Shown here piece after piece: positions 1,200 to 45,318 of a stretch of 64,000 nt of DNA; position 1 is the first letter of the stretch, and the number at the start of each line of letters is the position of its first letter. Position numbers and translations under genes: made by a program. The notes below the pieces were generated by a model. The model was not told where the DNA came from. It did not search any database and saw only the letters and a program-made list of their open reading frames with translations. The DNA comes from Pegea sp. RAD2-039 (Eukaryota > Chordata > Thaliacea > Salpida > Salpidae), in assembly GCA_034620365.1 (NCBI GenBank), contig JAQGEQ010000090.1, forward strand, positions 186,001-250,000, read 5' to 3'.

Positions 1200-2047
1200 C
1201 ATGCAGTAAACCTAAAACCGCCAGAAGGTTATATCGTCATCATCACGTGACATAGTCACTTCCTGTCTGAAGCAAGTGATGACGTCATTACGACTCATGG
1301 GTGAGATAGGAATCAATTTCAGATGATTAAAGAAAATCAATAAAATGAAATAATTAATAAAAAGTTGGAATCTTTTGATAAAAGTTTTTTTTTTCTAATT
1401 TGGGTCAAACAGATTCAAACTTTTCAATTTTTCGCTTTCATTTGACTCTTTTTTTCGTTTTTCTCTCTTATACATCGATGGTTGATGATTCAGCCGCCAC
1501 TCATTTCACCTTCAATTCGCTTAAAACTGTTTCAATTCTTCCAAATAGACAGTTTTGTAAATACTCAAAGTTTATCAACGTGTTTGATTCAGTGTTTACT
1601 ACGTCATCAGAAAGTCATGATGTATTTTGTTTTATTTTAGTTTAAGAAGAGAGTAGCTACATCAACAACGATTATAAATCAAATTATAAATCAGTCTTTT
1701 TACTGCTATCAGTAGTTAGCTAATGGGCAGTCAGTCACAGTTGAGTAAACACAAGTGAGTTGACCAATGAGAGAAAGGCTTAATGTTGCTAGTAAGCAAC
1801 AACAATCATATTATAATCAAACAGTTTTTTATAATATGCTGACATCATTGATAATCAGTAAGAGCGGTTTATTGTTCTTTTAACGTCATCACATAAACCC
1901 GCAGCGCTGTTTCATTCACAAAAAAGAGAGTCAAACTCACAAGATGGTATGACATCATAAGACGCGCGCGTTTTTTGCTCCTCTTTTTATCGATGACTCA
2001 TCACTTACAGAGTTAGTTTATAAAATGTCTTCTTTTAAGATCAAGGA
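1200..2047 (+). promoter_or_regulatory. Probable upstream regulatory region and leader of lin-28
   Basis: This stretch is less AT-rich than the DNA to its left and contains several CpG-bearing motifs. There is a CACGTG E-box at 1244-1249, a full palindromic CRE (TGACGTCA) at 1280-1287, and CRE-like half sites near 1600 and 1882. A GC-rich patch with repeated CG dinucleotides lies near 1961-1971. It ends at the lin-28 start codon. I saw no clear TATA box and cannot place the transcription start. A possible splice acceptor (ttacag, 2005-2010) lies 37 bases before the ATG, so part of this may be a 5' UTR intron or a trans-splice site. The short open frame at 1400-1645 is not supported as a gene. 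Confidence 0.4.
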
Positions 2048-2051
2048 ATGA
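2025..2051 (+). promoter_or_regulatory. Eight-codon upstream ORF overlapping the lin-28 start
   Basis: ATG at 2025 opens a frame of eight codons (MSSFKIKE). It ends with TGA at 2049-2051, which overlaps the lin-28 ATG at 2048-2050 as ATGA. If it is in the mature leader, ribosomes reading it would finish exactly at the lin-28 start, an arrangement suited to termination and reinitiation. Whether it is transcribed depends on where the 5' end lies. Confidence 0.4.
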
Positions 2052-4126
2052 GTGAAAACTTTGAAAAGGAGGATACCGGTAAGGACATTGATTCAAATGA
2101 TACCTCGGACCTGATCCAAGCTCTTGGTGATTAACCGTTTTTTATCATCTTTTGAAAATGAGGGAAATACTTTGAATCAAAATCTCTTGAAACCTCTTTG
2201 AGTCGACCCAAATACTGATGAGTTAAAACTCTCTTCTAGACTCTATCTTTTGATCTTCATCATCTGCTGCTCATCAATACGTTTTCTGATCTTCATCACT
2301 CCTAATTTATAATCTTCTGATCTTTTCAACCATTATCATCTAAACATTAGTTTAATTCTTCATCATCTGATCTTCATTTTATCTTTTGATCTAAATCACC
2401 TAAAGATCTAAGAATCGATCCTTAACCACGTGACTCTTTACAGGGAAATGCAAATGGTTCGATGTGCTCCGAGGATATGGATTCATCGCCCCGGATGACA
2501 CCAGTACCCCAGAATCATCTTCATCCACATCCGAAAAGCAATCTCTCAAATGCGATGTATTTGTCTATCAGGTAGGATTTCCTGCTCAATCGAGCGTAAC
2601 GACCGCCGCGAAACCATTGAAGCAGTGACGTCATACGTTGATTCCGTTTTCAACCAGTGACTAAAACTCGGACGCGTTACACTTGAGTGATTACAGAATC
2701 GCTGAAGCGCGATGAAGAATGTAAAGAATGTTTTGTGAGCGAGTGGGCGGGATAGTGGACCGCTAGTGGGCCTGGGGGTCAAGTAGACTGGTCAGTAATG
2801 ACCGGAAGAGGTTTTAATATCGATAAACATCAAGCAGATCTGCGATTTGATTGGTAGTCGGGAGCAATTGGATCAATCTTAAAGTGATTCAAATTAAAGA
2901 GTTTTGGATAAGTTTCTGTTAGAAGTTTTGATTGTAGAGATTCTTTCTGTTACTAATTCTTTCTGTTACTAACTCTTTCTGTTACTAATTCTTTCTGTTA
3001 CTAATTCTTTCTGTTACTAATTCTTTCTGTTACCAATTCTTTCTGTTACTAATTCTTTCTGTTACTAATTCCTTCTGTTACCAATTCTTTCTGTTACTAA
3101 TTCCTTCTGTTACTAATTCCGCTGTCTCAATTGTTTTTGTTTTTGAGATTGACTTGGGGTTTTTTTTTAATTCGAAAGCACTTGAAAGTAGAAGTAGTTT
3201 AATCAAATCGATTTTTTGAACTTAATTAAATTCAACAAACCAGGATTAGACCTCTTGATGATCTGATGACGTCATTGATGACGTCATTAAACACTCAAAA
3301 AACTTTCCCGCCACTGAGATTAGTGAAGCGTGACAATCACAGGGAATTGTTGTTGGAATTTCCAGTTTGCAGAAAAAACGAAGCCATCAAGCGAATATGA
3401 CGTCATCAAGCGCACATGACGTCATCACGTTTGTCTTTTGCCAACTCGAAATAAGTCACATAAAAGTTTGATCATCCAGATAAGAGGAAGATATGAGATT
3501 GAGAGCAAAGATGAAAGAGGTCTTCAGAAGAAGATAAAAATCTTTTTAAAAAATTAATTTTCTTTTTTTCTTTTTTTTTTAAATAATTTCTTTTCTTAAT
3601 AATTTGAAGCTTTTATTCGACTCTTGAATCAATTTAAACTTTCAACGAGCTTCAAAGAAACAGTGACGTCATCACCAATTCTCTTTCTGTAGTCAGCCAT
3701 TCAGATGTCAGGGTTCCGATTCCTTCGCGAAGGCGAACGCGTCCAAGTCTGGTACAAAAGGTCCCATCGTGGTCTTGAAGCTGCCAAAGTTTGTGGACCA
3801 GATGGTCAGGACTGTCAAGGAGCTGGAGCAAAGCAGAGAAAACGCAAGAGAAAACCTTACAGGTAGAGAACAAAATGGTCGATTTTAGATTTGGATTTTA
3901 AAACTTTTTGATTGACAGATGTTACAACTGCAACGAGCTTGGTCACCATGCGCGCGAGTGTACTGAAAGCCCGATGCCAAAACGCTGCCATAGATGCAAA
4001 TCAACCGAGCATTTATTTGCTATCTGCCCGCTTAGAAAACTCTCAAGCCCGCCAAATGGTTTAAAATCTTCCGATCAAGAAAAATCCCTGCCAGGAAGTC
4101 ATATAGAAATCTCCGATGAGTCATGA
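2048..4126 (+). CDS. lin-28: LIN-28 homologue (cold-shock domain plus two CCHC zinc knuckles)
   Basis: RNA-binding developmental timing factor; in other animals LIN28 binds let-7 precursors and blocks their maturation. Exons by phase-consistent GT-AG junctions: 2048-2078, 2444-2571, 3693-3862, 3919-4126, giving 178 residues (human LIN28A has 209). Residues about 11-88 form the cold-shock domain, with the RNP1-like GYGFIAP and RNP2-like DVFVYQ. A Ser-rich loop of about 20 residues between them is longer than usual. A basic stretch (KQRKRKRK, about 100-107) leads into two zinc knuckles: C111, C114, H119, C124 and C133, C136, H141, C146. This order of domains is diagnostic of LIN28. Intron 1 is 365 bases, intron 2 is 1,121 and intron 3 is 56. 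Intron 2 carries a minisatellite and several CRE octamers. Confidence 0.93.
2941..3120 (+). repeat. 16-bp minisatellite in lin-28 intron 2, about 11 copies
   Basis: A tandem array with period 16 (unit TTCTTTCTGTTACTAA) runs for about 180 bases. Unit variants are single C/T changes, for example TTACCAA for TTACTAA and TTCCTTC for TTCTTTC. The unit is pyrimidine-rich and contains CTAA, which resembles a branch point, so the array offers many possible branch or pyrimidine-tract sites inside the intron. Copy number is likely to vary between individuals. Confidence 0.95.
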
Positions 4127-4230
4127 TAGAAGATTTCTGACGTCATGTCTTCTCGTCTATTTTTTTTGACTCACAAGGATGTTGCTTCGGTACAAAAAAC
4201 GAAAAAATATTTTCGTATTTTTTGTTTATA

Positions 4231-7300: not shown

Positions 7301-9196
7301 GTGCTTTATTGTTTTCGTTTAAATTATAAATAAATTGAATATTAAAATGAGCTGAGAGATGAATAATTTTATTATTTTATTGTTTTCTTTTTAGCATGAG
7401 TCATCAACATGTTACTTTATTAGAATTGTCAAATTCTTTTTTTTAATGAAATAACACATGGCTTCAAATAAAAACTCCTCAAATGAAAATTTTTTAAGTA
7501 TTTTTAATAAATTTGCTAAATTTAAAGAATTCTTAAAAGTCCTTAGTTAAGTAAACAAATGAATTATCATGATTTTATTATAATTATTTACAGTTTATGA
7601 TTAATAATACTTATAAATTAAGTACACTAGGCAAATTATAATATTTAATTTCATATATGCTTCAATTAATTTGGACAAATTTCTTTAGATTTAATAATAT
7701 TTGGTTTCTTATGCAATCAATAAATTTACTAAAACTTAATTTTTTTAGTTTTGATAAGGCAAAAAGGTAAAGATTTTCTTTAAAGGTTATTATAATTATT
7801 AATTTATCATTTAGCTTTATAATTTTATGATCAGTAAAATTTCTGCTAACTTAGATTTAAGCAAAACAAAGTTTTCATAATGATAAATATTATTTTTAGA
7901 CTCTATTAGTTTATGTTTTCCAAATATTTCAATGAAATAATATACTTTGAAAAGTTTTTATTTACATTTTTATATTTCTCATAAAATTATTACAATTTTT
8001 TTATTTTAATTAATAATAGCAGTACAAAAAGTATATAAATATGTAAATAGATATAAACGAAATTAAATAGTTTATAAAATAATATAAAAACTATTTTAAA
8101 CTTTAATAAATTTTAGATACTATTTTAGAATTATTTTTTGAGCTTTACTTGAAAAGTTTTTCAAGTTATTCCATTTTAGATAATTAGTTGTTTTTGTATT
8201 TTTGTTACAAGTATTTTTTCCAAAATGTTTGAAAGATTAAATGTTTTTAATTTCTTTCATAATCTTATTCTAGATTTATTTTGTGTTTCATATTTTTAAA
8301 CATAAACATTTTTTTAGAGAATTTTTAGTGTTTATTTTCAATAAAAAAGTATGATATAACATAAAAAAAACAAATTCTTACTTTTGATTATGCAGTTATT
8401 TCATATTTTAACGTTTTAATTCTTAAGTTTTGAAATGTAAAAAGATTTATTGTATATGTTCATTTAACTGACTGAATTATTGCTCACTTAAACAAACAGA
8501 GTTTAAACAAACAAGTTGAAAAGTGAGAACAAAAAATAAAAGATTGAATGTTAGCTTACCAATAGTCGATAATATTGTAGATCAAAACGTTGAATTTTTT
8601 TCTATAAATTGACTTCTTTAAATTTTTTAAATTATTTGTCAAATTATTATATCCAAAAGAAAGTATGCTAATTTTTTATGAACACTTAAGCTAACTACTT
8701 AATAATTTTTAGCATCAATTTATTGACTAATTTCAATTTTATTTAAAAATCTTTTAAATTAGAAAAAGGTTTTTAAAACTTAACAATTATTTTGAATTAT
8801 AAAGAAAAAAGTTGTTTTGTGTATGTTAGTTTAATTTACAATATTTTGAAAGTGGTAGTTATAAGATTTATATTTCTTAATATTATAATATTAGAAATGC
8901 ATTTTATGTTTAAAAAGATATAAAGTTTATTCTTTCATGAAATAATATCATTTTATGTCAGTTTATTTATTGTTTTAGCAAATTATAATTCTTAAGATAA
9001 TTTAAGATGTTTATAAAACTTTGTAATTTCATTTTTAAACAGCTCACAGATTTAGTTTGCTTCAAGCTATGAAGATCTTTTTTTTATTTTTATAGATTTT
9101 ATTTTTTTAGGATTGCTTCTCTAATTGTGTGACAAAATTTTACTTACCTATGTATTAAACCTGAAACTTTTTATTTGAATTTGTGTTTGTTCCACC
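4334..9196. other. Intergenic AT-rich DNA, about 4.9 kb
   Basis: The first few hundred bases probably belong to the distal lin-28 3' UTR, with an AATAAA at 4664-4669. Beyond that I see only AT-rich, low-complexity sequence. Open frames at 6645-6986 and 6927-7134 overlap on both strands and have no recognisable domain or coding bias. I see no structural RNA and no mobile element I can name. Confidence 0.5.
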
Positions 9197-11394
9197 ATGC
9201 AAAATATGTAAGTTATATTAACAGTTTTAAAAGCTGAATACAACAAATATGTTTCTGATACAGACAGCATACAAAAGTTGGAGACAATGAAGTGCTACTT
9301 AGTACGGAGTTCACATTGTATCCCAAAAATAAACTTGCTTTAGTCCAATTAACAAATCATTCAATCTGTATCAACAGTCATTCAAGGATTGAAAAAATAG
9401 AACTGAATGATGTAATTGGTAAATGATTTGATTTCTATCTCACAAAACACAAGTGAAAGTTAATTTTGATATAAACAGGTTGTCATATTTTGGAAGGTAA
9501 CAAAACAACATCGTCAAAATTATTTATTTGTATATTTTATTATCCTATGCAAAAAAGATTATTCCAAGGTACCAGTAGATATAGATATACAAGGTAAATA
9601 TTTGTTTGGTTATCATTCACAAACATTTACAAGAACCCCTTTCATATTATAATATAATTTGTAGTTTTATTTTGAGATGTTATTAAACACCTTTAGATAA
9701 TTTTATTTAATCATTTTCACTTTCTAAACTTTTTTTTTGACCTAAAAGTTTATTTGTTGAATTATTTCCTAGGTCACTTGGTATTGAGGACAGTTTTCAA
9801 TCTAAAGATGGAAGAACAACTGCTGAAGTTTGGAAAAAAGTCATTAAACTGATAATTAGTGGCAGAAAAATGACAACAGCTGATAGTAAGTTTCTTTTTA
9901 CTGTTTCAAATATTCACCAGATTACTCTCAATTTGATTTCTGTGTTTATATCTCCTAAAAATCAACAAACCCACATACTGTCGCTAACAAAATATTCAAA
10001 CAAATGATAGTCGCTAATCTGGACGAATTGGAGACGCCGACCCGCAATTACCTCGTCTATGTCAACCCGTTTAGTGGTTCTGGGAAAGCGATCCGGATGT
10101 ATAAGAGCTACCTCCGTAAAGTCCTAGCTGAAGCTGAGATCACTCACAAATGCATCCAAACCGGTTTGTCATCACCTCTACTAGTCTCATCACTAACATC
10201 ATCTTCTCAGAACATGCTGGTCACGCACGTGATGACGTCAAACAAGTCGCGCTTCAAGATTACGATGGAATTGTGATTGTGTCTGGAGATGGATTGGTAC
10301 ATGAGGTGAGTCCTCATCATCTGGAATTTGTTTAAAATGTCCTTGTAGATCATCAATGGGCTGATGGATCGGCAAGACTGCGAAGAGGCAATCAAGACAC
10401 CTATTGGAGTTGTTCCCGGAGGTTCTGGGAACGCTCTAGCAGCTGCAATCATCTACGCATCTTTCAGGTAATTCAAACTTCCAACTTATTGTCTGCTGAT
10501 TGGTTGATAAATGGATGACGTCACTAACCTGTCTACAAGGTGAATATTGATAAAATCGCCCAATCACAGCCTTCAATTCTGCACTTTTACTGATCACGTG
10601 ACTTGCTTTAATTTCTGGTTTCCATGTCAACCGCGATTACTCGCTACTCTTTACGCCCTTTAGTTGCATTTCTGTTGCTCTGAAATCTTCTATTGTTAAA
10701 CAGGAAACACCCAATACCGTTCATGTCTCCCTACCTGTCCATATTTGAAGTGGTCCGCGGCAGAGCTGTTGGTTTGGACCTGATGAAGGTTCAAGTTGCC
10801 AATGATGGGCCAAATGTTATTACCAGATATGGCATCTTAGGACTTGTTCATGGGATTATCTCTGACGTTGACATAGAAGGGGAAAATCTGCGGTTTTTAG
10901 GGGGCCCTGTTCGAAACACAATCCTTGGGTTGCTACGGACTCTGTTGCTACGAAGATATCAAGTCCAAATCTCTTATCTACCCACCACTGATGACGTCAT
11001 AGTGCCATCATTGAATGAACCAACCACAAAAGCTTGGAGAAGAGTGAAAGATGACAGTTTCATCAGTATCTCAGCACTTTTACTAAGTCATGTTGGTCAG
11101 AAAGAGATGATGCATGCTAATGAACAACTTTCTACTGGTTCTATAAAACTCACTTTACTTAATTCTGATTTATCTGCCAGCCAAATGTTAAATGTATGGA
11201 ATCAAATTGGAACTGAAACTGGAATCGTCAATGAATCATTCAATTCTGTATCAATTATTAAATGTTCAGCTGTCAGAATCTCTCCTATAACTCCTTATTC
11301 TAAGATTCTAACTCTAGATGGTGAAAGGATACCTTATCGACCAGTACAATGCAGTATCCTGCCTTCTGCTGCTAGAGTTTTAGCAACAGCATAA
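9197..11394 (+). CDS. Sphingosine kinase, form A (shared catalytic half plus intronless module A)
   Basis: Phosphorylates sphingosine to sphingosine 1-phosphate. Exons: 9197-9207, 9264-9418, 9479-9593, 9773-9885, 10011-10163, 10211-10305, 10349-10467, 10704-11394; 483 residues. All phases agree. The ATG sits in CCACCATGC. The N-terminal region (DVIGCHILEG, YYPMQKR) resembles the lead-in of animal sphingosine kinases. The catalytic domain shows the family motifs VNPFSGSGKA (about 149-158), SGDGLVHE (207-214) and PGGSGNALAA (237-246). The C-terminal half from residue 254 keeps the sphingosine-contacting DVD motif (GIISDVDIEGE) and ends with LTLDGERI, matching the FAVDGEL region of the human enzymes. 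The C-terminal exon has no introns and is more diverged than module B. AATAAA motifs at 11570 and 11574 close this form. The first exon (3.7 codons) is the least certain. Confidence 0.88.
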
Positions 11395-11673
11395 GAGTTT
11401 TTAGATTTTTTTTACAATTGAGTCTTTGATCCATCTGATGGATTTATATTTGCACTTTCAAATCCAAATTATTCTAACTTTTATCTGCTTGTTATTTATT
11501 ATTATGTCTGTTTAGTTAATTTCCATATTTATCTTTAGAAGTAGAACCGAATTTTCTGTCGCTTTCCGAAATAAATAAAACTTTTTTCATCAATCTCAAA
11601 ATTGCGATTTATTTAAATGAAGCAAGCTGCATCTTTTAGTTAGAGATGACACAAGACATTATTGACTTTCTAG

Positions 11674-12845
11674 AAAAAAGAAGACTAAACCGAAAGAGCT
11701 TTTGATGGATTCGCTCTTTGAGATCTCACGTGGGAGATCACGTGATCTTGCTCTAATGGAGGTTTCTCAACAAGATCGGAAGTTCATCTCGTTTCTAAAC
11801 ATCGGTTGGGGTTTCGTTGCAGATGTAGATATCGAAAGCGAACGTTACAGGTGAATGACGTCATCATGCATCGATCATGACGTCATTTGTGGTTCTTTTG
11901 ATAGGTTATTTGGTGATGCTCGGTTCACGATTGGATGTGTACCGCGCGTGATGAATTTGAGGAGATACCGGGGTTCAATCTCGTATATTCCCGCCACTGA
12001 CTCGAATTTCACTCCCATTAACTCTCCTCTCTTAACCGTGAGTCTTTTCATCTCAACTTTCACTTTCAATAATGACGTCATCATTCAGGAAAATCTGGAA
12101 TACGGACGCTACCGAAGACTCTCTCAAAAGTAAATTCATAAAATGAAATTTGAAATTTAATTTCATCAAATTCGCCAAATTAATCAGAACTTTTCAGCCA
12201 ATGCAGATGAAATAGAATTAATTGAACTTTTCCAGTGTTTATTTGTAATTTTTGAATTTGTTTCAAAGGTTGAATAATATTTTTCTTAAATGTTGCAACT
12301 TACATTAAATATTTACTTTCAAGTCTTGCTTTTTACTAAAACTTCAAACAAATCAGTTATTTTCAACATAAATAATATTTGAAGCTCCTCATTTGACCCT
12401 GAACAAGTCAGCTTAACAAATGATGATAACTGGATCAAATTAGACGGAGATTATGTCTTCGTGATGCCAATTTATCTTTCCCACATTGGTAGTGACATGT
12501 ATGCTATGCCAGAAGCTAAATTAGAAGAACCAATTGTCTATTTATATTGCCTCAGATACGGAATTGTAAGTTCTTGATTTCCTAGCTCTAAATTTAACTT
12601 AATCTTCATCTAAATAGTCGAAATGGATGTTGATTCGATCGCTGTTAGCATTTGAATCAGGCAAACATATTCATATCGGTGGTGAATATGTGACTGTTGT
12701 TCCATGTACAGCTGTTCGTATTGATCCTTACAACAAGTTTGGACATGGTAACTTGACTATTGATGGCGAATCAGTTTCTTATCAATCATTACAAGTTAAC
12801 ACGACTTCGTTGTATGCTCGTGTCATGTGCAGCTCTGCTAATTAA
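11674..12845 (+). CDS. Second sphingosine kinase C-terminal half (module B), probable alternative 3' exons
   Basis: Five exons (11674-11850, 11905-12037, 12089-12129, 12385-12565, 12618-12845) encode 253 residues homologous to the C-terminal lipid-binding half of sphingosine kinase and closer to the human enzymes than module A: GFVADVDIESERYRRL, LRRYRGSISYIPA, YLSHIGSDMYA and LTIDGES. There is no second ATP-binding half, and only 279 bases separate it from the stop of module A. Its first acceptor (tttctag before 11674) completes an AG-ending codon, exactly the phase left by the shared exon ending at 10467. Joined there it would give a 506-residue enzyme with no stop or frameshift. The simplest reading is a mutually exclusive 3' module selected by splicing and poly(A) choice. 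A stand-alone truncated protein from ATG 11704 is less likely. AATAAA is at 13030. Confidence 0.8.
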
Positions 12846-13219
12846 TTCGTTTTCTTCTTAAAAACAATCTTTTTGCTGTTTTTAAGACTATGCAAGTTTC
12901 GTCAATATTTTGGCGTTGGTTCCTGATAATTTTTTGATCTGTTTTTATTTATTAAAAATTCTGACCACGTGACATCATTCACATTTTAATTATTGTGTTT
13001 TTATTAATTTTTTTATCAATTAATAGTTGAATAAATCTGACCTCAATCACTAAAGTTAAATCTATTTAAACTTTGAAGCAACTTTTGAATATATCGACAA
13101 ATTTTTCACAAATATCAAACCGATATATTCAACAATCTATTTGTTCCTATTTACATATCAAAGTTACAAAAATATACAAATGATAAAAGATATTTCTACA
13201 ACAACCTTTATAAACTCCA
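12846..13219. other. Tail-to-tail 3' flank between sphingosine kinase and the natriuretic-type receptor
   Basis: 374 bases separate two convergent stop codons. AATAAA for the plus-strand gene is at 13030-13035, and TTTATT motifs (minus-strand AATAAA) occur near 12946 and 13002. The 3' UTRs of the two genes probably overlap. A CACGTG E-box lies at 12966-12971. Confidence 0.5.
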
Positions 13220-20925: not shown

Positions 20926-21693
20926 AACTGATAATATGATTTTATAGCACAGTCGCTTAAATAAACTTTAAAATACATATCATAGTTAATCATTATGTTT
21001 TTTTTATTATTTTTTAAGATTTATTATTATATATTTTTACTGAAATCATAGTTTAAATTATTTTGAAATATTTTTAAATAACGTCATTATATAAAAACTC
21101 CAATTTATCTACACACTAGTTTTACCAATTGTTTACTTTTATAGGAACTTTTGTACAAAAATACAAAATAAACAATTTTAAAATGCTTGCATAATAAATT
21201 TTCTTGATTATATCTTGAGGTAATATATTAAAACATTTTATGATAACTTTGTTAAATTTTATGATTTGATTAACTCACAAGCATTTTATTAAACTAGTTA
21301 CATTTTTATTATCAATTTGTGCAAAAACTGAATTTTTTTATTTTTACTTTTCCTGCTAACTATGAAAATGAAAAGTGTTTAATCTTTTTTTAATAATTTT
21401 GCATAAATTAAACCTTTTAAGGTTTTTAACTATTATCATCAGTTATATATTATGATAACTCTATATTTACAAAGTATTTTTAATGATAAGTAATATTTTA
21501 AAAAATAGTAAAAAACATTCTATCATTGATTTTGAGTTTCATTTTAGTTCTATAATTATTTTGTGTTTAACTAGTTGCATATATTTATTATTGTTGTTTT
21601 AAAAAAATCCTTAGAAATGTTGTTTATAAATTTAATAGTAAATATATTAACATATTTTAGAATATTAAGTCACCAATTTTTTAACTTGGAGTA
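20926..21693. other. AT-rich upstream flank of the AP-4 mu gene
   Basis: I see no coding sequence. The region must contain the promoter of the AP-4 mu gene, but no TATA box or other core element stands out from the A/T background. Confidence 0.5.
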
Positions 21694-23013
21694 ATGATTA
21701 CATCCGTGTTTTTTCTTACTAAATCTGGAGATGTCATACTTTTTAAAGAACTGTTACCTTCAAATCAACCTACAAACCCAGTAAAAATTGGATTAATATA
21801 TAAAAAAAATGGTAACTCACTGTCTACTATAATACAAAAAGATGGAATCTACTATACGTTTAGTGAACAAGACAAAATAATTGCTGTAGCAGCTTCAGAT
21901 GATAATGACTTTTCATCTATCATTGTTTTACAAAGTCTCTATAAGATATGTAGTATTTTACAAGATTTTATAGGACTGTTAACTGAACAGACTCTACGCT
22001 CAAATATTGGACTTGTAATTGAGGTTATAAATTCTAGTTTTTGTTCTGGGATGCCTGTAACTGTTGATACAATGCAACTAAAATCTGCTCTTGCTAATCT
22101 TGCGTCTTTGAAGTATCAACAAAATAATATTTGGAGTTCATCTACTAATCTTTTTTTTAAACAGAATAAAAAACCACTGAGTTCTGTATCTGGTGAAACC
22201 TCGAAAAAACCTATTTTCACACACGCAGAAGAAGAAGAGATATTTGTAGATCTTACAGAGAAGATTAACTTATCAATGAACAGCAAAGGTATTATTGACT
22301 TGTGTGAAATTCAAGGGGACGTTAAAGTGAAAAGTTGTCTCAATACACCAGCAAAAGTCTTTCTTCAATTCTCTGAAACATCTTTAAATTTTCTTAATAT
22401 TGCAGAATTTAATTTAAAAGTAAAACAAAATAAAAAGAACCCCTTGGAACTATCATTAGATGCTGATCCTGGTATTTCAAAAATATTATCCTACAAATCA
22501 TTTGATTATAGTAAAATCAATTCTGTTCCTTTTTCAATTTATTCAAACATTCAACCTAAACTTGATGGTAAAACTATTGATATTCAATTTAAGGTTCATT
22601 GTGAGCTTCCAACTCCAGTTATCAATTTCAAAGGTATATTGAATTTACCATCTAATGTAGTCAGTTGCCAGGGTAAATCCAAATTGTTTTCAATGAAATT
22701 TGAAAGAGAAAAAGAAAAATATGTTTTTACTTGTCCTGAATTCCCACCTAAATCTCATTTCCAAGTAGATATTCAAGTTTCAGTAAGTTCAATAACTCCT
22801 TTGACCTCTTTGGAGTTATCTACTGTTGTTCTAAAGTTTGAAATTCCTATGTACTCCTTATCTAAAATGAAAATTAAGCGCTTGGTGGTAGAGAAAGCAC
22901 AATATAATCAGATACAAGACTGTAATTTTGTTAAATGGATAAGACAACTAACTCATACAGATTCTTATGAGTTTTCTTTGGACACTAGTAAACTAGAAGC
23001 ATTGACAAACTGA
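21694..23013 (+). CDS. AP-4 adaptor complex subunit mu, intronless
   Basis: Medium (cargo-binding) subunit of the AP-4 complex, which sorts cargo such as ATG9 from the trans-Golgi network in other animals. One uninterrupted frame of 439 residues, close to human AP4M1 (453). Residues 1 to about 140 form the longin-like domain, starting MITSVFFLTKSGDVILFKEL. A linker follows, then the mu homology domain from about 187 (IFVDLTEKINLSMNSKGII, then IQGDVKVKSCL). The end, KWIRQLTHTDSYEFSL, matches the KWVRHLSHSDAYVIRI end of AP4M1 rather than AP-1, AP-2 or AP-3 mu chains. The lack of any intron is odd beside neighbours with 4-12 introns. AATAAA follows at 23290. I found no poly(A) remnant or target-site repeat that would prove a retrocopy. 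Confidence 0.9.
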   Translation: MITSVFFLTKSGDVILFKELLPSNQPTNPVKIGLIYKKNGNSLSTIIQKDGIYYTFSEQDKIIAVAASDDNDFSSIIVLQSLYKICSILQDFIGLLTEQTLRSNIGLVIEVINSSFCSGMPVTVDTMQLKSALANLASLKYQQNNIWSSSTNLFFKQNKKPLSSVSGETSKKPIFTHAEEEEIFVDLTEKINLSMNSKGIIDLCEIQGDVKVKSCLNTPAKVFLQFSETSLNFLNIAEFNLKVKQNKKNPLELSLDADPGISKILSYKSFDYSKINSVPFSIYSNIQPKLDGKTIDIQFKVHCELPTPVINFKGILNLPSNVVSCQGKSKLFSMKFEREKEKYVFTCPEFPPKSHFQVDIQVSVSSITPLTSLELSTVVLKFEIPMYSLSKMKIKRLVVEKAQYNQIQDCNFVKWIRQLTHTDSYEFSLDTSKLEALTN

Positions 23014-34387: not shown

Positions 34388-37300
34388 ATGACTGAACAAA
34401 CTGAAAAAGGAAAATCCGACAATAGCTCAACTTTGAATGACGTCACGTTACAAGCCATAGGCTTGTCGTCAGGTGTACGATTAGATGAAGATGACAAAGC
34501 AAGCCAATTTTTTGAAATCCTGCCCGGACCTATGGAGTGCTTGGATGCAAGAATATCAAGATTAAAACAAGGTTTTTGATCAGCTAAAATTGATTTTCTG
34601 AAATTCAAAGTTTTATCAATTTGTAGAATTTCAATTTTTTGATACAAGTTTAAATAACTTCACTAAATAATAAAACCAATAAAAATCTCTAATTAGAAAC
34701 TAATTTGATCAAAGTAAAGACTACTTTTATATCAAAAGTAAATACTAAAGTATCAACGTAACTTACATTTTTTTTAAACAATTATAAACGTTTGTTGGCG
34801 ACCACAAATTATTAAAACTTTTTTATCAAGTATTTCTTTATCACTATTAACTAAACAATCTACATTTGCGTGTTTTTCTTTTATCGCTTATCTTTTTTAA
34901 AGTTGATTATTACTGATATAGATTACTATAAAAACAACTTATCATATTTTAGGTCGTTCAGACTCCGCAGTCAACATCCTCGCAGATGCAGTGCTCACTT
35001 CAATGACGTCTGATATAAGAAAGATTTCAAGAATTTCAACTCCTAGAATAGAAAATCGTCAACATTTTAAAACTTTGCACCTCAAGCCACGTAAATATTT
35101 TCAATTTTTAGAAAAACATTTTTAATTTTAAGTTCACAAAAAATTGTGGAAATTAGGGCTCAGAAGGTCATCATGCCCAGCAAGGTTGGTTTCAAATGAT
35201 AACTCATTAAAACAGACGATATCAACTGAATCTAAGAAGTTGTTTAACTTACAAAAGTCTTGCAAAGGTATGATTTAATTGATCCATTTATCTGTGAAAA
35301 TTTTTTTTCAAATATTCTTCCGATAATAGAATAAATATTTTTATTCTTTTCAATTTAACTCATAACTCTTCAACAGAATCTTTATTTTTTATTAATTATT
35401 AGGATTTCATTTACATTTTTCTTTAACTTAATTGAATTTTTCTTAAATGAATTTTTGATCTAGTAATTAATTAACATATTGTAATTTAGTTGATTATTTA
35501 CAATTTAAAAACTAATTTTAATTTATTTGTTAAACTTTAATCTTTCTTATAAAAGACTTTCAAACAAAAATTCATTTCAAATTTTATTTCTTTTTTAGTT
35601 GACTTTAATTTACATAAATGAATTATTTAATTTACATCAATTGAATTTGAATCAAACTTATTTTATATTTTCACTTTGGTTTTTACATTTAACAAATATT
35701 TAAAATTTCAAAAATTTTCAGTAAATAATGAAACTGTTTTAAAATTTAGAAACCAGAAAATCATTTGAAAAACAAAATCACGTGACAAGTTTAGCATCTT
35801 TACTTGTATCTCAAATATATGATCAATCTGAAGAAAGAACAGATTATTCAATTCAAAGTAAAACTGATAAACATGACCAAACTCCTATTGTAAACGAAAT
35901 AATCAACCCTTCGTCAAATATGACTGAAAAGTCAAAAAGTGAGAAATTCTTTTATTGTTATCTATTTATTAGTCAAGAGTTAATTAAACTTATTTTAAAC
36001 TATCAATATAACTTTTTCTACCAAGAAATCCTTGATTAAATTGTTACTTAAATAAAACTAAAATTGAATAATGTAGGAAGTTCTTTGATTGATTAAAATA
36101 CTCATTGATGATTTAAAGATAAACATCTAAATGAAAAATTAAATTTCTAACTTCACCTTTATTAACTTTTGAAGGTGGACTGTTTGTGAAAATGACTTTT
36201 TTAATCTTTAAAGATATTTAACTACAAATAAGATTTATAGAATTAATTACTGATTGCTTTATCACACAGATGAAAGTATAAGACGAAATCGAGAATCTTT
36301 CAGCAGCTTCACGATGTTGCTGACTGACGAAATCATGAAACCTCCACAAGACATCAAAGTTGATGAAAGCTCATCTGGAAGTTACGTTGAAGAACCAAAA
36401 CATGTCACAAGTGAAAGACAAATTTGGAGGAATGAAAGTAACCAATGGAAAGGTCATTCTGCCTGTTCCTGTGGTTATATCTCCCCAGCACCAACTCGAC
36501 TTGAAACATTAAACCCTTTTCAAGGCAAAACAGTTCTACAACTCGTACACGGTCCTTTTGATCTAAACTCAAGTCTCAAAGAGCATATTCTGAGAGCTCC
36601 ATCACCGAGAGTAAGTCTAGATATTGATAATCGATGCCCTCAATGTGGAAGCGAAGAGGAACGCCAAAGATACTCCACAGTGAATTCTGATCTCAGTCAA
36701 TCACTTGATGATCTTACCTCTCAAGAGAGCGATGAGAATTTTAAGATGGAAGATTTATATTTTTCTTCCGATTGTGAATATCCGAATGAGATATTAAATC
36801 GAAGTCTTGATAGACAATCAGGAGAAATATCTTTTAAAAATCTTCAAGAAATAAACTCAGCAATAGATGAGATTTACAGCAAGAAGATTGAATCAATTGC
36901 AGCTAGCTCAGACACTGATTCATCTGATCTTACGATTCCTTATATCGACGAAAATATGAAAATTTCTGATTTATTTACATCAAGAGAAACGATCGAAGAA
37001 GATCAATTTAAAATCAAAAATTTTGTCAGTAATCAAATAAATGAGGTTAAAACAATTACAGGAGTGAGTAAAAGTGAATCAATTGCTGATAGTAGTGATG
37101 CTGCAACCGATGAAGAACTTAAACAAACATTTTCATCAGCTACAACTTTCAAGGATAAAAATTCATCTTCATTAAGCAATGAGGTTGAAGACAAGTTTCA
37201 ACTTGTTCAAATCACACTGAGTAATAAAACAACTGAAACTCATACAAGATCTAACTTGTTCGAGCAAATAAATCCTGTTACTTCTCACACAAAGACTACA

Positions 37301-40300
37301 GTAAAGTCAATCACAAATTATAAAAATTTAAAAGAAAACCCGCAGAAGGAAACTTGTCAGACAAGTTCAACAAGCGATGAGTCCTCTAATTGTAGCATAT
37401 CAACGATAAAAGGCTTCAAAACGTCAATCTCACAGTTTGTTTCATCACCAATTTCAATATCACCAAGTCTATCCAATGAAGAAGAAGAAGAATTATATCA
37501 TCTTGCAGAAGAAGATGTTGAACCTATTTCAAATCCTGAAAACATTAACAATAATAAAGTAAATACTCAGACACAAAACTCATATGAAATCCCATTATCT
37601 TCATCAAAATCATCTGAAAACGAAGATCAGAAAAAGGATTCATCAGAAAACACGTTTGAAGATCTCAAAAAAGATTTAAAGAAACCACAGAAAAAAGAAG
37701 ACGAAGAAATGATTCAATATTCAGAAAGTGAAGAAAAAAATCAATTTGTGGTGAAACATAGAAACGTGTCTTCTTCTTCATCTTCTTCTTCATGTAAATC
37801 TCATCAAGAGTCTGATCAACAAGATGAAGATGTATCTAATCAACAAAATCTGATCTTAACAAAAGATTCAACTGACTCAGAAGAAGATGAAGAAAATAAA
37901 AGAGATTCTGATCTTGATTCTAATAATGAAAATAAAGAAGAACAAAAGAGTTCATCTTCATCTTCATGTGAATCTGGAGATGAGATGAAAGATTCTGTAA
38001 AAGAATCATCTTTTGAATCGACTTTTAATAAAGAATCTCATCAAGAATCACATCAACAAGATGAAGATGTATCTAATCAAGAAGATCTGATCTTAACAAA
38101 AGATTCAACTGACTCAGAAGAAGATGAAGAAAATAAAAGAGATTCTGATCTTGATTCTAATAATGAAAATAAAGAAGAACGAAAAAGATCATCTTCATCT
38201 TCATGTGAATCTGAAGATGAGTTGAAAGATTCTGTAAAAGAATCATCTTTTGAATTGACTTTTAATAAAGAATCTCATCAAGAATCTCGTCAACAAGATG
38301 AAGAAGTATCTAATCTAGAAGATCTGATCTTAACAAAAGATTCAATTGACTCAGAAGAAGGTGAAGAAAATAAAAGAGATTCTGATATTGATTCTAATAA
38401 TGAAAATAAAGAAGAACAAAAAAGTTCATCTTCATCTTCATGTAAATCTGGAGATGAGATGAAAGATTCTGTAAAAGAATCATCTTTTGAAATGACTTTT
38501 AATAAAGAATCTCATCAAGAGTCTGATCAACAAGATGAAGAAGTATCTAATCAAGAAGATCTGATCTTAACAAAAGATTCAACTGACTCAGAAGAAGATG
38601 AAGAAAATAAAAGAGATTCTGATATTGATTCTAATAATGAAAATAAAGAAGAACAAAAAATCTCATCTTCATCTTCATGTAAATCTGAAGATGAGATGAA
38701 AGATTCTGTAAAAGAATCATCTTTTGAATTGACTTTTAATAAAGAATCTCATCAAGAGTCTGATCAACAAGATGAAGATGTATCTAATCAAGAAGATCTG
38801 ATCTTAATAAGAGATTCAACTCACTCAGAAGAAGATGAACAAAATAAAAGAGATTCTGATTTTGATTCTGATAATGAAAATAAAGAAGAACAAAAAAGAT
38901 CATCTTCATCTTCATGTAAATCTGAAGATGAGTTAAAAGATTCTGTAAAAGAATCATCTTTTGAATTGACTTTTAATAAAGAATCTCATCAACAAGATGA
39001 AGATGTATCTAATCAACAAGATCTGATCTTAACAAAAGATTCAACTGACTCAGAAGAAGATGAAGAAAATAAAAGAGATTCTGATTTTGATTCTGATAAT
39101 GAAAATAAAGAAGAACAAAAAAGATCATCTTCATCTTCATGTAAATCTGAAGATGAGTTGAAAGATTCTGTAAAAGAATCATCTTTTGAATTGACTTTTA
39201 ATAAAGAGTCTCATCAAGAATCTCATCAACAAGATGAAGATGTATCTAATCAAGAAGATCTGATCTTAACAAAAGAATCAACCGACTCAGAAGAAGATGA
39301 AGAAAATAAAAGAGATTCTGATTTTGATTCTAATAATGAAAATAAAGAGAAACGAAAAAGTTCATCTTCATCTTCATGTGAATCTAGAGATGAGATGAAA
39401 GATTCTGTAAAAGAATCATCTTTTGAATTGACTTTTAATAAAGAATCTCATCAAGAGTCTGATCAACAAGATGAAGATAAATCTAATCAAGAAGATCTGA
39501 TCTTAACAAAAGATTCAACTCACTCAGAAGAAGATGAAGAAAATAAAATAGATTCTGATCTTGATTCTAATAATGAAAATAAAGAAGAACAAAAAAGATC
39601 ATCTTCATCTTCATGTAAATCTGAAGATGAGTTGAAAGATTCTGTAAAAGAATCATCTTTTGAATCGACTTTTAATAAAGAATCTCATCAAGAATCACAT
39701 CAACAAGATGAAGATGTATCTAATCAAGAAGATCTGATCTTAATAAAAGATTCAACTGACTCAGAAGAAGATGAAGAGAATAAAAGAGATTCTGATCTTG
39801 ATTCTAATAATGAAAATAAAGAAGAACAAAAAAGTTCATCTTCATCTTTATGTGAATCTGGAGATGAGATGAAAGATTCTGTAAAAGAATCATCTTTTGA
39901 ATCGACTTTTAATAAAGAATCTCATCAAGAATCTCATCAACAAGATGAAGATGTATCTAACCAAGATGATCTGATCTTAATAAAAGATTCAATTGACTCA
40001 GAAAAAGATGAAGAAAATAAAAGAGATTCTGATCTTGATTCTGATAATGAAAATAAAGAAGAACGAAAAAGATCATCTTCATCTTCATGGAAATCAGAAG
40101 ATGAGATGAAAGATTCTGTAAAAGAATCATCTTTTGAATTGACTTTTAATAAAGAATCTCATCAAGAATCTCATCAACAAGATGAAGATGTATCTAATCA
40201 AGATGATCTGATCTTAACAAAAGATTCAACTGACTCAGAAGAAGATGAAGAAAATAAAAGAGATTCTGATCTTGATTCTGATAATGAAAATAAAGAAGAA

Positions 40301-43300
40301 CGAAAGAGATCATCTTCATCTTCATGTAAATCTGAAGATGAGATGAAAGATTCTGTAAAAGAATCATCTTTTGAATCGACTTTTAATAAAGAATCTCATC
40401 AACAAGATGAAGAAGCATCTAATCTAGAAGATCTGATCTTAATAAAAGATTCAACTAGCTCAGAAGAAGATGAAGAAAATAAAAGAGATTCTGATCTTGA
40501 TTCTGATAATGAAAATAAAGAAGAACAGAAAAGATCATCTTCATCTTCATGTAAATCTGAAGATGAGATGAAAGATTCTGTAAAAGAATCATCTTTTGAA
40601 TCGACTTTTAATAAAGAATCTCATCAACAAGATGAAGAAGTATCTAATCTAGAAGATCTGATCTTAATAAAAGATTCAACTAGCTCAGAAGAAGATGAAG
40701 AAAATAAAAGAGATTCTGATCTTGATTCTGATAATGAAAATAAAGAAGAACGAAAAAGATCATCTTCATCTTCATGTAAATCTGAAGATGAGATGAAAGA
40801 TTCTGTAAAAGAATCATCTTTTGAATTGACTTTTAATAAAGAATCTCAGCAAGAATCACATCAACAAGATGAAGATGTATCTAACCAAGATGATCTGATC
40901 TTAATAAAAGATTCAATTGACTCAGAAAAAGATGAAGAAAATAAAAGAGATTCTGATCTTGATTCTGATAATGAAAATAAAGAAGAACGAAAAAGATCAT
41001 CTTCATCTTCATGGAAATCAGAAGATGAGATGAAAGATTCTGTAAAAGAATCATCTTTTGAATTGACTTTTAATAAAGAATCTCATCAAGAATCTCATCA
41101 ACAAGATGAAGATGTATCTAATCAAGATGATCTGATCTTAATAAAAGATTCAACTGACTCAGAAGAAGATGAAGAGAATAAAAGAGATTCTGATCTTGAT
41201 TCTGATAATGAAAATAAAGAAGAACGAAAAAGTTCATCTTCATCTTCATGTAAATCTGAAGATGAGATGAAAGATTCTGTAAAAGAATCATCTTTTGAAT
41301 TGACTTTTAATAAAGAATCTCAGCAAGAATCACATCAACAAGATGAAGATGTATCTAACCAAGATGATCTGATCTTAATAAAAGATTCAATTGACTCAGA
41401 AAAAGATGAAGAAAATAAAAGAGATTCTGATCTTGATTCTGATAATGAAAATAAAGAAGAACGAAAAAGATCATCTTCATCTTCATGGAAATCAGAAGAT
41501 GAGATGAAAGATTCTGTAAAAGAATCATCTTTTGAATTGACTTTTAATAAAGAATCTCATCAAGAATCTCATCAACAAGATGAAGATGTATCTAATCAAG
41601 AAGATCTGATCTTAATAAAAGATTCAACTGACTCAGAAGAAGAAGAAGAAAATAAAAGAAATTCTGATCTTGATTCTAATAATGAAAATAAAGAAGAACA
41701 AAAGAGTTCATCTTCATCTTCATGTGAATCTGAAGATGAGATGAAAGATTCTGTAAAAGAATCATCTTTTGAAATGACTTTTAATAAAGAACTTCATCAA
41801 GAATCTCATCAACAAGATGAAGATGTATCTAATCAAGAAGATCTGATCTTGATAAAAGATTCAACTGACTCAGAACAAGATGAAGAAAATAAAAGAGATT
41901 CTGATATTGATTCTAATAATGAAAATAAAGAGGAACGAAAAAGATCATCTTCATCTTCATATAAATCTGAAGATGAGATGAAAGATTCTGTAAAGGAATC
42001 ATCTTTTGAATCGACTTTTAATAAAGAATCTCATCAAGAGTCTGATCAACAAGATGAAGATGTATCTAATCAAGAAAATCTGATCTTAACAAAAGATTCA
42101 ACTGACTCAGAAGAAGATGAACAAAATAAAAGAGATTCTGATCTTGCTTCTAATAATGAAAATAAAGAAGAACAAAAAAGTTCATCTTCATTTTCATGTG
42201 AATCTGGAGATGAGATGAAAGATTCTGTAAAAGAATCATCTTTTGAATTGACTTTTAATAAAGAATCTCATCAAGAGTCTGATCAACAAGATGAAGATGT
42301 ATCTAATCAAGAAGATCTGATCTTAATAAAAGATTCAACTGACTCAGAAGAAGATGAAGAAAATAAAAGAGATTTTGATCTTGATTCTGATAATGAAAAT
42401 AAGGAAGAACAAAAGAGTTCATCTTCATTTTCATGTGAATCTGAAGATGAGATGAAAGATTCTGTAAAAGAATCATCTTTTAAATTGACTTTTAATAAAG
42501 AATCTCATCAAGAATCTCATCAACAAGATGAAGTTGTATCTAATCAAGAAGATCTGATCTTAATAAAAGATTCAACTGACTCAGAAGAAGATGAAGAAAA
42601 TAAAAGAGATTCTGATCTTGATTCTGATAATGAAAATAAAGAAGAACAAAAGAGTTCATCTTCATGTAAATCTGGAGATGAGATGAAAGATTCTGTAAAA
42701 GAATCATCTTTTGAATTGACTTTTAATAAAGAATCTCATCAAGAATCACATCAACAAGATGAAGTTGTATCTAATCAAGAAAATCTGATCTTAATAAAAG
42801 ATTCAACTGACTCAGAAGAAGATGAAGAAAATAAAAGAGATTCTGATCTTGATTCTGATAATGAAAATAAAGAAGAACAAAAGAGTTCATCTTCATCTTC
42901 ATATAAATCTGAAGATGAGATGAAAGATTCTGTAAAAGAATCATCTTTTAAATTGACTTTTAATAAAGAATCTCATCAAGAATCTCATCAACAAGATGAA
43001 GTTGTATCTAATCAAGAAGATCTGATCTTAATAAAAGATTCAACTGACTCAGAAGAAGATGAAGAAAATAAAAGAGATTCTGATCTTGATTTTGATAATG
43101 AAAATAAAGAAGAACAAAAAAGTTCATCTTCATCTTCATGTGAATCTGAAGATGAGATGAAAGATTCTGTAAAAGAATCATCTTTTAAATTGACTTTTAA
43201 TAAAGAATCTCATCAAGAATCTCATCAACAAGATGAAGTTGTATCTAATCAAGAAGATCTGATCTTAATAAAAGATTCAACTAGCTCAGAAGAAGATGAA

Positions 43301-45318
43301 GAAAATAAAAGAGATTCTGATCTTGATTCTAATAATGAAAATAAAGAAGAACAAAAAAGATCATCTTCATCTTCATGTAAATCTGAAGAAGAGATGAAAG
43401 ATTCTGTAAAAGAATCATCTTTTGAATTGACTTTTAATAAAGAATCTCATCAAGAATCACATCAACAAGATGAAGACGTATCTAATCAAGAAGATCTGAT
43501 CTTAATAAAAGATTCAACTCACTCAGAAGAAGATGAACAAAATAAAATAGATTCTGATCTTGATTGTAATAATGAAAATAAAGAAGAACGAAAAAGATCA
43601 TCTTCATCTTCATGTAAATCTGAAGATGAGTGGAAAGATTCTGTAAAAGAATCATCTTTTGAATTGACTTTTAATAAAGAATCTCATCAAGAATCTCATC
43701 AACAAGATGAAGATGTATCTAATCTAGAAGATCTGATCTTAACAAAAGATTCAACTCACTCAGAAGAAGATGAAGAAAATAAAAGAGATTCTGATCTTGA
43801 TTCTAATAATGAAAATAAAGAAGAACAAAAAAGTTCATCTTCATCTTCATGTGAATCTGAAGATGAGATGAAAGATTCTGTAAAAGAATCATCTTTTGAA
43901 TTGACTTTTAATAAAGAATCTCATCAAGAGTCTGATCAACAAGATGAAGAAGTATCTAATCAAGATGATCTGATCTTAATAAAAGATTCAACTGACTCAG
44001 AAGAAGATGAAGAAAATAAAAGAGATTCTGATCTTGATTCTGATAATGAAAATAAGGAAGAACAAAAGAGTTCATCTTCATGTAAATCTGAAGATGAGAT
44101 GAAAGATTCTGTAAAAGAATCATCTTTTGAATTGACTTTTAATAAAGAATCTCATCAAGAATCACATCAACAAGATGAAGATGTATCTAATCTAGAAGAT
44201 CTGATCTTAACAAAAGATTCAATTGACTCAGAAGAAGATGAAGAAAATAAAAAAGATTCTGATGTTGAATCAGATATTGAGTCTGTTCTATTACCTCAAT
44301 TGTCTTTTTCCTCTTCTTCTTCTTGTTCAAGTAATCTTGAAGCATCAATTATTGATTCTCAAAGATTTAATGTTTCTAATTCTGAAATTGGAAATCTTGG
44401 AAGTTTGATTTCTTCTGATTCTTTTAAAGATAAAGAAGTTTTGAATCTTAAAATTGAAGAAAGATTAGATTCGTCTGATATCAGTCATGTTGTAAAAGAT
44501 GATGAACTTGGTTCTTCAGAGACACCTATTCTTTTTGATGAAGCAATGAACTCTTTCAATCAAGACTTTGATTATGAAAATGATTTTTCAAACGATGAAC
44601 TTAATGAAGAACTAGTCAAGTCTTTTAATTCTTTCAATTTAAGTCATTTACAAAATAGTTCTTATAAATATAATGTTTCCAAATATCATAACAGCTTCAT
44701 GTCTTCAATAAAAGAAGATGTTGATGAAGATGCAACATCTTCTTGTACTTCTTCATCTTTTATTCCTCGTATTATAATCACTTGCGAAGAAGACTGTTCT
44801 AATGAAACATTTGAAGATAACTTTGAAGATCAGATTGAAGACTTAAATTCACAAACTAGAGATTCTGATTCTCAAGACCCAGGTTTGTTTTAAGTTTATA
44901 CTTCTGTATTCTTCTGTATTCTTTATGTTTGTAGTCGATTTCAAATCTACAGAAACTTTTTCTACTAGCGGATAAACATTTTCAGATCAATTCTTTTATT
45001 TTCTCTGATTTTTTTTTCATTTTTTACTTGTTGTTTTTTCAAGACAAAGTTATTTCAATCTTAAATAATTAGTTTTATTTAAACTTTTTTTCTTGGAGTT
45101 TTCTGATTTTGAAACATTTCTGTTATTTATATCAAACTTTTAAAAATATTTTTCTAATTCATGACTTGGTTTTAGAAGCCTTTCAAAATAAAGAGAAACC
45201 AGAAAAAAAATTTTCAAACTCTCAACAAGACTCATTTTCAGAATTGCAGGAAAATATTAGAGACATTTTTAAGGACTTCATTTCTTCAAATGTAAGGAAC
45301 ATTTATTTTATAGTTTAA
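34388..45318 (+). CDS. Giant acidic/serine repeat protein, about 3,125 residues
   Basis: I do not recognise the family. Exons: 34388-34571, 34953-35090, 35157-35267, 35750-35938, 36270-44882, 45176-45318, all junctions phase 1. Exon 5 alone is 8,613 bases. The first 210 residues or so are ordinary (starting MTEQTEKGKSDNSS) with no signal peptide. Exon 5 begins with a unique region including CSCGYISPAP and CPQCGSEEE, two short Cys pairs that could bind metal, then Ser/Asp/Glu-rich sequence. From about 37790 to 44260 come 27 copies of a repeat of about 79 residues. A unique acidic tail rich in Ser and Asn closes the protein (IRDIFKDFISSN). TDSEEDEE-type sites suggest heavy CK2 phosphorylation and a disordered, intracellular protein. 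The last exon reads to a stop at 45318 with AATAAA at 45405. Splicing on at the GT at 45292 instead is possible. Confidence 0.8.
37796..44260 (+). repeat. Coding tandem repeat, 27 units of about 237-243 bp, in one exon
   Basis: Each unit is marked by one copy of KDSVKESSF; I counted 27. The unit reads, in order: a dyad rich in His and Gln (KESHQESHQQDED), VSNQEDLILIKDSTDSEEDE, ENKRDSDLDSDNENKEE, a Ser run (SSSSSSC), KSEDEM, then KDSVKESSFELTFN. Variation is limited: Lys, Glu or Arg swaps, Cys/Trp/Tyr at one site, loss of HQES (12 bases) in three units, and a Ser run two codons shorter in two. Synonymous sites are also nearly the same between units, so copies are recent or kept alike by unequal exchange. 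The coding strand is strongly purine-rich. Confidence 0.95.

Follow-up and report, generated by a model that had tools for sequence, protein, structure and literature searches.

Human SphK1, whose structure has been solved (3vzb, 3vzc, 3vzd, 4l02, and 4v24), consists of an ATP-binding DAGK_cat lobe with an SGDG motif and a C-terminal lobe that carries D178, R185, R191, and E343. Two relevant principles are already known from other genes. Isoforms of Drosophila lola share their N-terminal exons and have C-terminal exons of their own (PMC1947980), and in human CYP4F3A/CYP4F3B alternative exons change the lipid substrate of one enzyme (PMC12380495). In Arabidopsis, two sphingosine kinases are encoded at At4g21540 (SPHK1/SPHK2), a locus that had been assumed to give a single transcript (PMC4327526). 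Here, we describe a locus in the salp Pegea sp. RAD2-039 with the SphK1-type DAGK_cat lobe, SGDG motif, and equivalents of the four C-terminal residues, which differs from human SphK1 in having two alternative C-terminal lobes after one ATP lobe. It lies in a window of 64,000 nucleotides (positions 186,001 to 250,000 of contig JAQGEQ010000090.1, our C78 186001-250000), taken from an assembly of 105.7 Mb in 387 contigs. With a probability of roughly 75%, we read it as a single sphingosine kinase gene in which one ATP-binding half is followed by two alternative C-terminal halves, used as alternative last exons.

The salp locus departs from each of these precedents. Drosophila lola encodes not an enzyme but a transcription factor, of which at least 20 isoforms are made, some of them by trans-splicing (PMC1947980); the CYP4F3 choice is between exons 3 and 4, not between whole terminal domains with their own poly(A) sites (PMC12380495); and At4g21540 comprises two distinct genes (PMC4327526), whereas the salp assembly matches contained no second ATP half. 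In the sphingosine kinase literature, judged mainly from titles and abstract openings, no report was found of one ATP half with two C-terminal halves.

Results

Gene structure and predicted products

All features of the gene are on the + strand. Shared exons 1–4 (9197-9207, 9264-9418, 9479-9593, and 9773-9885), placed by GT-AG borders and frame, encode an N-terminal region of approximately residues 1–131; the 11-nt exon 1 (9197-9207) is tentative and is the least certain piece of the gene model. Shared exons 5–7 (10011-10163, 10211-10305, and 10349-10467) encode the predicted ATP-binding DAGK_cat half with the motifs SGDG and GSGNALA. The donor of exon 7 is in phase 2 (TCT TTC AG/gtaatt), and the acceptors at 10704 and 11674 both match that phase. 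The intron from the shared donor to the first C-terminal half, module A, is 236 nt long (10468-10703; G+C 0.386). Module A (10704-11394) is one terminal exon of 691 nt with TAA at 11394; it encodes 229 residues past the split codon and is followed by two overlapping AATAAA motifs (11570-11579) that start at 11570 and 11574. The second half, module B, would be reached by removal of a 1206-nt intron (10468-11673) that encloses exon A entirely, together with its poly(A) signals. It has five exons (11674-11850, 11905-12037, 12089-12129, 12385-12565, and 12618-12845), encodes 252 residues past the split codon, and is followed by AATAAA at 13030-13035, with ATTAAA at 12951 in between.

Of the 12 splice pairs, 6 are shared, 1 leads to A, 1 leads to B, and 4 are within B; every one of them is GT-AG and keeps the frame. 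The predicted products are 483 residues (form A) and 506 residues (form B) long. The locus thus has the layout of alternative last exons: one donor, two in-frame acceptors, and distinct 3' ends, each with a poly(A) signal. The exon coordinates of the shared part, A, and B given in a preliminary description of this DNA were borne out with small refinements, as were the intronless A, the five-exon B, the fit of either to the shared split codon, and the two product lengths. Rfam and tRNA scans of the window gave no matches.

The preliminary description had also noted AATAAA motifs belonging to A and a gap of about 95 bases to B; the distances from the two signals to the first base of B are 98 and 94 bases. 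Such spacing resembles that of known trans-spliced operons, and it favors a two-cistron arrangement in which the shared exons and A form a first gene and B is a downstream cistron, trans-spliced to a spliced leader at 11674 and encoding a C-terminal half without an ATP site. The phase of B, however, matches the shared donor, and the first in-frame ATG of B is its 11th codon, so that a B-only product would have no ATP site. The bdelloid rotifer spliced leader, as we take it to read, was absent at up to 3 mismatches; this counts only weakly against a trans-splice start, since the species may have a different leader or lack one altogether. Taken with the active-site residues described below, these features make the two-cistron arrangement improbable.

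Coding evidence for modules A and B

Module A has no stop over 229 codons in its own frame, as against 16 and 18 stops in the other two forward frames, and module B has none over 252 codons, as against 16 and 21. By composition alone, the chance of such an open frame is approximately 6e-7 for A and 1e-7 for B. When a codon model was trained on the shared exons together with B, module A scored +20.8 in its own frame and below 0 in the remaining five frames. The open frames of A and B are not due to chance. The two modules are homologous, as had been proposed (29% identity, E 6e-23), and each also matches human SphK1 on its own. CpG observed/expected was 0.14 in the block 11001-11500, compared with 0.68 and 1.42 in the 500-base blocks on either side.

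Family assignment, fold, and active site

Residues 145–248 of the predicted protein match PF00781 (DAGK_cat) with 86.1 bits (cut-off 23.6), and the match to human SphK1 begins at residue 143. Residues 1–144 have no Pfam match. Hence, exons 9197-10467, previously described as ATP-binding, stand as a shared set, but their ATP-binding part starts only at about residue 143. Against human SphK1, form B scored 225 bits and form A 143 bits. The C-terminal halves were identical to SphK1 at 75/226 (B) and 49/204 (A) positions, and to the ceramide kinase-like open frame of the same genome, which is incomplete, at 33/171 and 29/152 positions. A ceramide kinase identity was not supported, both halves being nearer to SphK1 than to that frame.

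The fold of A was taken from an alignment-based model; a single-sequence prediction had a pLDDT (predicted local distance difference test) of 31.3 and was not used. Among solved lipid kinases, the C-terminal lobe was nearest to SphK1, with bacterial and other lipid kinases, NAD kinases, and PI3K among the weaker entries of the Foldseek and VIA-align lists. As modelled, module A is the equivalent of the SphK1 C-terminal lobe.

In alignment with SphK1, the equivalents of D81 (D209, in the shared part), D178, E182, R185, R191, and E343 are kept in both forms, whereas the ceramide kinase-like protein of this genome has L at position 178. R185, R191, and E343 of SphK1 serve ATP binding and catalysis. 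Their retention in B would not be expected of a downstream cistron without an ATP lobe, which argues further against the two-cistron arrangement. D81 and D178 of SphK1 are reported to contact an amino-alcohol inhibitor (PMC10903003).

The lipid pocket was compared at what we take to be the pocket positions of SphK1. At these positions B is mostly conservative (F173, V174, F192, M272, Y288, L299, and H311), with changes that include C196 and S302. In A, positions 173, 174, 177, 268, 299, and 319 are conservative, and there are departures at N192, G196, T200, S259, E272, T288, N302, and Q303, with a gap at 311, the later part of the alignment being less sure. Because of these departures, the pocket of A may be more polar or differently shaped. 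The greater distance of A than of B from SphK1 at these positions agrees with a differing substrate or control but does not demonstrate it. By sequence, B appears to be the more conventional lipid half and A the diverged one.

Search for other sphingosine kinase halves in the assembly

A search of the assembly with the ATP half returned the present locus and loci on contigs C42 and C37, which we presume from their sequence features to be ceramide kinase-like and acylglycerol kinase-like, respectively, with open frames of 452 and 436 aa. A PF00781 search added C35, C101, and C221, whose sequences look like classical diacylglycerol kinases. Neither search had a second SphK-type ATP half among its matches, and thus none had a separate ATP-binding half for B, the presence of which the preliminary description had named as something that would overturn it. 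No further SphK C-terminal half turned up with either module as the query: for B, every row lay within the present locus, and for A, the top row elsewhere was on C43 (E 0.121). COX1, sought in the assembly for the mitochondrial code, was not found.

The locus could also be an assembly artefact, namely two tandem full genes of which the second ATP half was collapsed or lost. A precedent for confusion of this kind is At4g21540, once assumed to give one transcript and later resolved as two distinct SPHK genes (PMC4327526). In the salp, however, just 94 bases separate the second AATAAA of A from the first base of B, there is no N in 9000-13100, the locus is on a contig of 777,965 bases, and the phases match exactly. 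We regard such an artefact as very improbable.

Origin of the two halves

Either a partial tandem duplication or a pair of tandem full genes minus the second ATP half fits the locus. A free tree of C-terminal halves placed A among bacterial sequences with a support of 59, separate from B and human SphK1, for which the support was 70. Topology tests rejected none of three arrangements (p-AU 0.19 for A and B as sisters, 0.58 for B with human, and 0.54 for A, B, and human together), with a program warning of too few replicates. The tree does not decide whether A and B are sisters. Of 567 candidate stretches in a scan of genome_contigs, 444 were relatives; the 80 best of the 444 were all bacterial by title, with no animal relative among them. 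They included the top match to the SphK alignment, a 322-aa SphK-like protein of an Arthrospira chromosome (L027:5001-5912, E 1e-44). Three scans of viral_contigs yielded no relative. No 9-mer is common to the intron that precedes A and the stretch that follows A, so there is no sign of a target-site duplication marking A as an insertion. The absence of introns from A is not in itself evidence of a retrocopy, because long open frames also occur at the ceramide kinase-like and acylglycerol kinase-like loci.

Splice signals and the probable use of both halves

Several observations weigh against the reading as alternative last exons. In a splice matrix built from the ten introns outside the A/B choice (6 shared and 4 in B; acceptors 4.8–11.7 bits, donors 6.8–11.7 bits), which is a poor matrix for so few introns and favors its training sites, the A acceptor scored 4.5 bits and the shared donor 6.6 bits, just under the weakest training introns. 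The B acceptor, at 6.2 bits, was inside the training range; other AG sites in 10490-11850 scored as high or higher, up to 8.1 bits. The ten introns are 43–255 nt long, and the B intron is nearly five times the longest of them, and its removal would require splicing past a closer acceptor and past poly(A) signals. In addition, the genome search scores the best candidates only, exon by exon, so that the finding of a single sphingosine kinase is strong but incomplete, and an ATP half may have been missed.

The weak acceptor of A and the unusual length of the B intron would also suit a locus in which one C-terminal half is normally used and the other is a recent remnant left by a partial tandem duplication or by tandem genes. 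This, too, we consider unlikely, although less so than a second cistron or a collapsed assembly: both halves have open frames, of 229 and 252 codons, with the aligned active-site positions retained despite their low identity to each other, and none of 500 simulated copies with 20% of sites redrawn remained stop-free. As with some lola isoforms, B and the shared exons could also come from separate pre-mRNAs and be spliced in trans. A constant N-terminal end with alternative C-terminal exons is the lola layout, joined there in cis and in trans (PMC1947980). Nothing in the salp locus demands trans joining; B follows the donor at a distance of 1.2 kb on the same strand, and skipping in cis would be enough. 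This possibility seems remote.

Alternative last exons of one gene, the reading we prefer, is what the preliminary description had proposed as two exchangeable halves, and it draws on the anatomy, the intact frames, the active-site residues in both halves, and the lack of a second SphK-type ATP half among the assembly matches. B is probably made, because the locus is the only SphK found in the assembly, and A is probably made, because its frame has stayed open and its active site is retained with an identity to B of about 30%. Both mRNAs are thus probably produced.

Other features of the window

The palindrome TGACGTCA has 16 copies in the window, 14 of which are in two G+C-richer stretches (8 in 1280-4145 and 6 in 10233-12080). 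The 6 copies in 9700-12900, compared with 0.05 expected from a first-order model, fall in exons and introns alike. Pieces of a lin-28-like gene are located at approximately 2440-4000 (+), with a cold-shock match (PF00313, 26 bits, just below the cut-off of 27) and a CCHC zinc knuckle (PF00098, 32.5 bits); a 16-bp tandem repeat occupies 2940-3119 within this region. An adaptor complex medium subunit family protein is encoded at 21685-23013 (+; PF00928, 98.7 bits). A Ser/Glu/Asp-rich open frame of 2879 aa spans 36254-44893 (+) and contains a 237-bp tandem repeat at 37797-44280 (27.6 copies, 94% matches).

Discussion

Here, we propose a model in which exons 1–7 would supply the N-terminal region and the ATP-binding lobe to both forms. 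Splicing of the exon 7 donor to the near acceptor at 10704, with cleavage past AATAAA at 11570/11574, would give form A of 483 aa. Skipping of exon A and its poly(A) site, with removal of the 1206-nt intron, would join the five B exons up to the poly(A) signal at 13030 and give form B of 506 aa. Either C-terminal half would complete the same ATP lobe to a full kinase fold, adding the lipid pocket and phosphate-contacting residues. Because B is the half nearer to SphK1, the conventional enzyme would depend on skipping.

We infer that both predicted proteins would be active and may differ in lipid base, location, or control. More tentatively, as a possibility to which we give less than even odds, terminal-exon choice may switch the lipid of the animal's only sphingosine kinase: A would act on another sphingoid base or lipid or be held inactive, conventional B would be made only if A and its poly(A) site are skipped, and the output of sphingosine 1-phosphate (S1P) would be controlled by splicing. 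Production of both forms would mean that two lipid lobes share one ATP lobe, as a natural domain swap in an S1P-setting enzyme; pocket residues could then be compared against a constant ATP lobe, and splicing together with poly(A) choice would govern the output of the animal's only sphingosine kinase.
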